Of a stretch of 64,000 bases of DNA, positions 33,501 to 36,500 are shown piece after piece. The first letter of the stretch is position 1. Each line of letters begins with the position of its first letter. Origin of the DNA: Lepidurus packardi (taxonomy: Eukaryota > Arthropoda > Branchiopoda > Notostraca > Triopsidae); contig JAKZAN010000006.1 in the NCBI GenBank assembly GCA_023053545.1, positions 2,175,001 through 2,239,000 of the forward strand, read 5' to 3'. Made by a program: the position numbers and the translations under genes. The notes under the pieces were generated by a model, which made no database searches, had not been told where the DNA came from, and saw only the letters and a program-made list of their open reading frames with translations.

Positions 33501-36500
33501 ATGGCAGTTAGGGATGCGGGGAAAGAGGGGGGGGAGGAGAAATCAATAATTGAAGAAACACAACAGCACATCCCAGGTTCTAAGCTTGGTAAAGTAGTGC
33601 GAGCCAAGGTAATAATAAGGTTTCGGAGTAGCAGAAACTTGCGAGCAGGAGCAGCACAAAGCACTAGCAGAATCTCCAGTTGGTGGCAAAACTATCATAC
33701 TGACCACATGCCCACATATCTGCAGGTTTGCCATAAGGATCTTTTTTCAGGAGCTCGGGACTCATGTAGCCAGGGGTGCCCGAAAAACCTACAAAAGGCA
33801 CACACAAAAGAAACCGAAAAAAGACAGAAAAAGAGCAAACTAAACAGGCTGTCTACACAGAACTACAATTCAAACTAAAAGATTATATCCAACCACATCA
33901 AACTTAAAATCATAAAACAGGAGAGGAAAGAAAAAGTTTTTCTTTGCCACAAGCTTATTACACGCACGAAACGCCTCAGCCCCATCTAAGGGCCTTTCTG
34001 TCCGTCTCGTACATAGACACGTGGTCGTTGCGGGTAAATCTAATCAAGGCAAATTTAGGGCAGGGTGAAAACGAGTCCTTTCCGCATGGAAGAAGACGAG
34101 CAAATGTACGACGAAGGACTAGATCGAAGCTTCCAACTTTTGAGGCTTGAAAGGTTTTTTTTTATTACCAAGAAATAAATAAGTTAAAATAAAAAGAATA
34201 CGTGACATAGGTTTGAAGGCTTGGCTTTTTGGTGGTGATGGTGGTGAGTTTTTGGTTGATGAAAGAATGTATGCGTGGTTGGAATTAAATACTGACCACA
34301 GGCCCAGATATCGACCGGTTTGCCGTACGGTTCTTTCTTGAGCACCTCCGGAGACAGGTAACCAGGTGTGCCGGCGAAGCCTATGTATATATATAACACT
34401 TACATCCAGAACATTACATACATGAGGCCGAGAAAAAGGCGTTGGCCAAGGTGCGGAGCAAATGGCAATACTTGAATATATGCTCGCCCATATTAATTTC
34501 ATTAATTGCAATTGCCTCACGTACGCCGTCTATGCACACGTGCCCCACTACAAACTATTAGGACGAATTACGACCACGTCTACGGACCGCGCTAGGCTAC
34601 AGTTGATGTATATCCTGAGTCGACGCTAGACTTGCTGGGGAAATCAATAAAGTGCACAACGCATTATTTTTCGCGTGCTCGGCTCTTTCACATATAATAA
34701 TAACAATAGACTCTGATCTACGCCGCTGTCATGAAATTGATCGGTGAAGCCAAGTCTTTACTAGCTCACTTTCGGCGACCAATAGCTAGAGCATATGTAC
34801 AAACACACTGGCAGAAATACATATAAAAAAGGCGTTAACTTACCAAACCATGCTTGTTGGTCGCCTTGGACCTCAATGGCTAGCCCGAAGTCGGCTAATT
34901 TGACGGCGGCACCTTTGGCTTTACTGGCGAGTAACAAGTTTTCGGGCTGGAATGAGATAAAACAAGACCCATCATTTCCTTGAATTCTCGATAAAACCAA
35001 GTCAAGTGAGTGCTTAATTCAGCTCTTAAAGCAGACGTGGAAAAATTTCGCAAGCAATCCTACCTTGAGATCTCTGTGGACCACTCCATTTTGGTGACAA
35101 TGACTGACACTCTCGAGAATCTGTTGTATGCAATGCGAGGCATCGGCTTCACTGTAGAATTCACGAGCGACAATGTCTTCGAAGAGTTCTCCACCAGTCA
35201 CTCTGAAATCAGAACAAGGAACCGTTAATGAACTGAAAGTTGAAACCTTTAAAATCCACTAATGTAATAAGACGGAATCCAACTGAGTCAGACTTACAAG
35301 TCGAAGACGAGGTAGTGGAAACTTTCTTCTTGTATGCTGTCGTGGAGACGAACTGGTCCCGAAAAATACACCACAAGATTAAAGTTCGAATTAATTAAGA
35401 TTCTACGACGAGTACACTATCAAAATTATGTCCCGTCTTCACCCCCCACCTCCCGCCCCTGAAAAAAACAAGCACCAAATTGCGTCCCGCAACTTTCAGC
35501 TTTCCTCCTCTTATTAAAGATAAAAGACAATGTAAACTTTCAAGAACTGTCTCAAACAGGCACAATCCTCCAAATCGTTCGTTGCTAGGTAAATCCAATC
35601 ACACCTACGACTCATTTTGAACAGTTCAGTGCAACTCCGTCAAGTAGAGATTACTACGAGCTCTGTAAAATGCCAAGCAAACAATAATCCGCAGTTCAGA
35701 ATTTACATTGTTTATTTAACTACCTGCCCGGGGCTTAAGTGACTGCTTATGACAAACTTTTTTTTATTTTAAAGAGAGAAAAATATGGAGACCGTGGGCT
35801 GCGATTGCTCTTTTACTTTCTTTTTCTTTAAAGGCATTCCCCAAGTTCAACCCGTAACTCATGTCCCGAAAGAATCAGTGACAGCCAGACAATAAAAAAA
35901 AGTTTCCTAAAGCTGTGCTGCAACAGGTGCTCACAACTCGGGTGTGCTCTCCATATTATCCTTTCCATCGACAACCAAATGACTCCCGTTCTGATAATTT
36001 GCTTCTACGCCTTAGTCACGGTTGTCTTTTACTATTTAAGCAAGCAGCATTGCTCCCATCGATAGGGGGGAAATGAATAAAACCGCGTCCCTGGGTCTAA
36101 ATTCGGATACTGCAGGCTTGCTTACAGTAAGGTATTGTTTGCATGACATGCAAGTTGCGTCTTGCAGCAAGGGCGTATCTTCTGGTCTCGAGTCCTGCCT
36201 CCTTTCGATTTATCGATTGCGTCTTTCCTTCTCCTCTTGTATTCCGTTTCATGGTGTCTAACCTACCCTAAGGTGGCCCAATACTCATGCTTTTGTACCC
36301 AACAAAAGAAAAGAAAAAAATAATCGAAAACGAAAAGCTCGACTAGGCTTCTTTAGACTTTCCGGCCTCTTTTCTGCAGACTGGACGTGTTTCTAATCAG
36401 GAAGGGTGGGCATCTGGCTGTTCGCCATAGTCACGCCCACCTGCGGCAAGAAAATTGCTTTACGGTGGAGCAAATGTAGATACAACAAGCATGTCTGTGA

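Follow-up and report, generated by a model that had tools for sequence, protein, structure and literature searches.

Tandem exon pairs in kinase genes are already known as a kind, since CAMK2D, JNK, and FYN each provide one. For human CAMK2D, a tandem pair of duplicated exons is reported within the kinase domain, with the changed residues adjoining the ATP site (PMC9741552). Four clusters of mutually exclusive exons are counted in the same human gene in a second report (PMC5740500). JNK is described as having mutually exclusive kinase-domain exons 7a/7b, to which an effect on activity, and possibly on the choice of substrate, is ascribed (PMC8746764), and FYN as having mutually exclusive homologous exons of tissue-specific use (PMC9741552, PMC4465641). 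Alternative splicing of CaMKII has otherwise been described for the linker (PMC11088445). Indeed, CaMKII splicing is usually discussed for the linker only: in Drosophila and vertebrates, one gene gives many splice isoforms, but it is the linker that is altered and not the catalytic core, which is what the exon pair described here (7a and 7b) concerns.

We analysed a 64-kb window (the whole stretch of DNA under study, 64,000 nt) of a tadpole shrimp genome. The minus strand of the window holds a complete CaMKII coding region, running from ATG to stop at 44932–27526 and consisting of 17 exons plus the extra exon 7b. The parts of the gene needed below are as follows.

27526..44932, minus strand: whole CaMKII coding region (spliced frame; Pfam Pkinase and CaMKII_AD)
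34844..34946, minus strand: exon 6, 103 nt, from HRD-proximal to WFG with DFG inside; shared, upstream (splice model)
34297..34380, minus strand: exon 7a, canonical; peptide identical in most arthropod CaMKIIs among the matches listed
33705..33788, minus strand: exon 7b, putative alternative exon, homologous to 7a and constrained
33019..33113, minus strand: exon 8, 95 nt; shared, downstream (splice model)

The spliced product has 524 amino acids with either 7a or 7b, in the same frame, and its best PDB matches are CaMKIIs. Pfam places the Pkinase domain at residues 14–272 and the CaMKII association domain at residues 388–515; the CaMK-type kinase domain (PF00069) scores ca. 260 bits in both forms and the C-terminal association (hub) domain (PF08332) 205.7 bits. 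The autoinhibitory and calmodulin-binding segment with Thr286 was read in the spliced protein and aligned to solved CaMKIIs. When fly CaMKII was searched across the 64-kb window using tblastn, 7a and 7b were the only copies of exon 7. In the genome (108.6-Mb assembly), no second CaMKII gene was seen in the 150 of 331 candidate places that were scored, because matches off the locus were at most 57% identical and covered only part of the query.

Exons 7a and 7b are adjacent, homologous, and equal in length (84 nt) and phase (1/1), as is characteristic of tandem exon pairs. Each exon begins and ends inside a Gly codon, directly behind its first base, AG precedes and GTCAGT follows each exon, and a spacer of 508 nt (33789–34296) separates them. 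The two exons are identical at 62 of 84 nucleotides and share 22 of 28 residues. Their 22 nucleotide differences are distributed 4/2/16 over codon positions 1/2/3 and give 12 silent and six replacement codons, the replacements in 7b being A175S, L181M, V185L, E189D, V195A, and I197M (numbering of the 524-aa protein). The repeat unit measures 95 nt, extending 3 nt upstream of the exon and 8 nt into the downstream intron. The first-pass annotation, which had proposed two interchangeable exons here, had given the coordinates, lengths, phases, GTCAGT donors, 508-bp spacing, and 22/28 shared residues just as we re-derived them, and its six residue changes proved correct on recount. The segment coded by either exon comprises the P+1 loop, the SPE (APE-type) motif, and the beginning of helix F; the invariant kinase residues TP, PE, DxW, and G are retained in 7b. 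The six changed positions lie in the activation segment of CaMKII, which ranks with the best conserved segments of animal signalling proteins. On the opposite strand, a plus-strand ORF at 33372–33878 (168 aa), antisense to 7b, had no Pfam match and is probably due to chance.

The shrimp pair resembles the CAMK2D pair in gene family, in the homology and tandem order of its exons, and in its place within the kinase domain, but the CAMK2D changes lie next to the ATP site (in an exon that the text of the paper leaves unnamed), whereas the shrimp pair runs from the P+1 loop to helix F. The four CAMK2D clusters likewise represent mutually exclusive splicing within a CaMKII gene, as 7a and 7b are read here. 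Common descent of the CAMK2D pair and the shrimp pair appears unlikely, since most human tandem exon events are reported to have arisen early in vertebrates (PMC9741552). As far as the reports describe them, the JNK exons are, like the shrimp pair, tandem exons swapped within a Ser/Thr kinase domain, but that of a MAP kinase, and the FYN pair affects the SH2-kinase linker and the N-lobe of a tyrosine kinase, unlike the P+1 pair of the shrimp. The JNK exons are commonly called 6a/6b and cover a different part of the C-lobe. The first-pass annotation had placed known CaMKII splice variation in the linker; this part of its interpretation gives way to the kinase-domain pair reported for human CAMK2D with its exon unnamed (PMC9741552), while its view of 7b as a second coding exon for the P+1 loop stands. 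A literature search, covering mostly papers outside subscription, listed no report of an arthropod CaMKII with a second, alternative exon for the activation segment. What is new is the arthropod activation-segment pair with its candidate switch; tandem kinase-exon pairs as a kind are known.

We consider it fairly probable that an ancient tandem duplication of CaMKII exon 7 took place in the ancestry of this tadpole shrimp, that both copies were retained as coding exons, and that the pre-mRNA takes one or the other. The outcome would be two full-length kinases that are six residues apart around the P+1 loop and the beginning of helix F and that differ mildly, either in substrate choice or in kinetics, with L181M at the P+1 pocket. 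Leu-181 presumably corresponds to Leu205 of the P+1 pocket of PKA. Whether splicing can tune the substrate choice of CaMKII could readily be tested on a natural, long-kept second version of this kind.

To place the residues of 7b among known CaMKIIs, we searched with the full-length 7b isoform and with the 7b region. Among the best 120 of 7992 matches of the full-length isoform, all 120 proteins had the 7a-type residues A, L, V, E, V, and I at the six positions; where named, these came from insects, Daphnia, and Artemia (one was unnamed), and they include several isoforms per species and so are not independent. No protein with 7b was among these 120 listed matches, which include entries of Daphnia and Artemia, in a database whose 90% clustering may hide isoforms differing at 1% of residues. 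In the 7b-region search, too, none of the best 120 of 7990 matches carried 7b, again from a database clustered at 90% identity in which isoforms may be hidden; its top matches were ordinary vertebrate deltas with 85–88% identity over 41 residues. Among the same 120 matches, vertebrate CaMKII-delta had D at position 189 in every one and M at position 197 in all but one (119), and D189 and M197 of vertebrate CaMKIIs are visible also in the alignments to solved structures. Since E189D and I197M are thus ordinary residues of vertebrate CaMKII-delta, four changes are unusual for a CaMKII, and A175S, L181M, V185L, and V195A were each found in none of the CaMKIIs among the matches listed. Ala-175 presumably matches Cys199 of PKA, two residues beyond the classical activation-loop phosphosite. 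Because this position lies past the classical phosphosite, the case for Ser-175 as a phosphosite is weak.

These residues bear on the possibility that 7b is alternative yet functionally equivalent to 7a, and that the duplication serves the control of expression or splicing. Since each of the six replacements is conservative, the two forms may differ little in function; two of the six are normal residues of vertebrate CaMKII-delta, and the Pfam Pkinase scores of the two forms are about equal (259.8 and 260.5 bits). The same scores, in which the kinase profile treats both forms alike, indicate that the 7b kinase should be active. However, change at six positions that are otherwise invariant (120/120 relatives among the matches listed), under strong constraint, suggests selection for difference, and we regard full equivalence as rather improbable. 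The likeliest effect of 7b would be a mild shift of substrate preference.

The splice sites of the pair were compared with those of the rest of the gene. The two donors are identical.

34289..34296, minus strand: donor of 7a, weak, GTCAGTAT (8 nt, shared with the 7b donor)
33697..33704, minus strand: donor of 7b, weak, GTCAGTAT (same 8 nt as at 7a)

Both donors read GTG/GTCAGT with C at +3, a position occupied by A in 14 and by G in one of the remaining 15 donors of the gene, and their score of 2.9 bits is lower than that of 13 of those 15. Weak donors tend to rely on nearby enhancers. The acceptor of 7b ranks second of 17 (11.8) and that of 7a eleventh (1.4). Since the exon length of 84 nt is divisible by 3, double inclusion would escape frame shift and decay: both exons together give 552 amino acids and neither gives 496, each in frame. 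Steric exclusion would require shorter introns than those present here (463, 508, and 591 nt), and both exons have GT-AG sites. Whole-intron pairing of the Dscam type was not found among the three intron pairs, whose duplex energies were ordinary (43, 64, and 86 of 100 shuffles were as good or better). The best ungapped pairing of the introns flanking 7b, a purine-rich against a pyrimidine-rich stretch, was matched by two of 300 shuffles and is at most a weak lead; that of the other two intron pairs was matched by 41/300 and 243/300. Elsewhere in the introns, a TGTGTG pair lies upstream of 7b (such counts occur in 0.0022 of windows), and imperfect repeats of ca. 15 nt, GTAGTATCTGCAG-like, follow one another in the intron directly after exon 3, at 36780–36865 on the minus strand.

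Mutually exclusive splicing of 7a and 7b is likely, but the frame does not force it. A non-exclusive use, in which products of 552 aa with both exons or of 496 aa with neither would be made on purpose and would join the holoenzyme through the hub as kinase-dead subunits, agrees with the in-frame outcomes, for which there is no nonsense-mediated safety net, with the strong acceptor of 7b, and with the finding of no whole-intron RNA pairing that would enforce exclusion. On the other hand, a repeated or absent P+1 segment would be expected to wreck the kinase fold, and the same catalytic-position residues in 7a and 7b suit an either/or choice in an active enzyme. We therefore hold deliberate non-exclusive use to be improbable, and an either/or choice would be the most natural use of 7b.

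To examine the constraint on 7b and the age of the duplication, 7a and 7b were compared by the Nei-Gojobori method. Differences were found at 14 of 19.2 silent sites, giving a dS of ca. 2.7 that is near saturation and hence imprecise, and at 8 of 64.8 replacement sites, giving a dN of 0.135. We also simulated neutral change by random substitution from 7a to 22 differences, using three transition weights with 100,000 runs each. Six or fewer residue changes without a stop arose in 0, 1, and 1 of 100,000 runs for the three weights; the neutral runs averaged 13–14 residue changes, and a stop arose in about half of them. The near-saturated dS, the low dN, and the simulation indicate that the duplication is old and that 7b was translated for most of its life. 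7b is very likely an old, constrained alternative exon. That 7b is instead a dead duplicate, no longer spliced and drifted, agrees with the failure to find 7b in any annotated protein of the matches listed, but it is very improbable given that 16 of the 22 changes fall at third positions, that no stop is present, that both splice sites are intact, and that the neutral simulation reached this state in 0–1 of 100,000 runs. Least probable of all is an assembly artefact with two alleles placed in tandem, for which we found no support, since most silent sites are different between the exons and the likeness of the introns ends beyond 8 and 3 nt, as would not be expected of alleles.

Under the favoured reading, an old duplication with one-or-other splicing, the choice between 7a and 7b might be made by factors that bind just 3′ of each weak donor. 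A motif scan gave two clusters at these places.

34232..34278, minus strand: seven YCAY (Nova/Pasilla-type) motifs directly 3′ of 7a
33630..33688, minus strand: seven YGCY (Muscleblind-type) motifs, six TGCT and one TGCC, directly 3′ of 7b

The 75 nt after 7a contain seven YCAY and no YGCY, and the 75 nt after 7b contain seven YGCY and one YCAY. Counts at least this high occur in 0.0008 (YCAY) and 0.0001 (YGCY) of the 75-nt windows on both strands of the 64-kb window, and whole-intron shuffles reached the cluster counts in the first 75 nt in none of 1000 cases each. When the 75-mer alone was shuffled, the YCAY count was reached in 77 of 1000 cases, which is not significant against local composition, and the YGCY count in five of 1000. 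The 75-nt span was chosen after the motif positions were known, and 32 comparisons were made, with eight motifs tried on either side of both exons. In view of this post hoc span, the number of comparisons, and the local-composition shuffles, the YGCY cluster stands better than the YCAY cluster. Exon 2 likewise has six YGCY downstream.

The genome contains a match to Muscleblind (85%, C2:9264978–9268581) and matches to Pasilla/Nova (65% and 74%, C2:11570849–11571125). YCAY is described as the Nova motif and YGCY as the Mbnl motif, with downstream binding promoting exon inclusion (PMC3737533), and Pasilla, the fly Nova, as having an RNA map that resembles that of Nova, with downstream binding leading to inclusion (PMC3165201). 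An exception is Camk2g, for which repression is reported with the YGCY cluster lying 8 nt from the donor (PMC3737533), compared with 16 nt between the donor and the first YGCY motif of shrimp 7b. Since downstream binding favours inclusion of the upstream exon in the known RNA maps, Pasilla/Nova bound after 7a and Muscleblind bound after 7b could set the choice; cells with active Pasilla would then prefer 7a, and those with active Muscleblind 7b. Our confidence in this splice switch, by which CaMKII of nerve and muscle would differ in the P+1 pocket and holoenzymes could mix two specificities, is rather low; a nerve-muscle catalytic switch is possible. The locus would allow a test of whether one gene gives nerve and muscle different catalytic cores, for which vertebrates use four genes.

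Other coding regions were observed on the plus strand of the window. An intron-less frame with a helix-loop-helix domain lies at 8968–9456. A frame at 49124–51928 has a RasGEF N-terminal domain and a proline-rich tail, and its product is presumably Sos-like. Kinase-like pieces at 60827–63443 resemble what we take to be a Tribbles-type pseudokinase.

In the wider assembly, contigs of 50–100 kb (such as C250, C178, C222, and C231) gave many kinase-like matches with in-frame TAA or TAG, whereas TGA was present in only one of 150 kinase-like rows among the matches listed. The in-frame TAA/TAG on these small contigs looks like ciliate DNA in the assembly. Read with code 6, the C250 locus has seven overlapping long frames. 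Frames of the COX1 family that stay open under the standard code were found on C52, C43, and C214 and are possibly bacterial or other foreign DNA. Several nuclear copies of mitochondrial DNA are present, with COX1 pieces on C1, C2, C4, C5, C21, and C38. A nuclear copy of mitochondrial ND2-COX1-COX2 lies at C6:695716–699924, in which ND2 is open and COX1 and COX2 are nearly open. This copy marks the animal as a tadpole shrimp (Notostraca), either Lepidurus or near to that genus, and the named CaMKII matches are in keeping with this. The ND2 frame of the copy is 81% identical to those of Lepidurus apus apus and L. couesii, 77% to that of L. arcticus, 73% to that of L. apus lubbocki, and 61–64% to five Triops entries.
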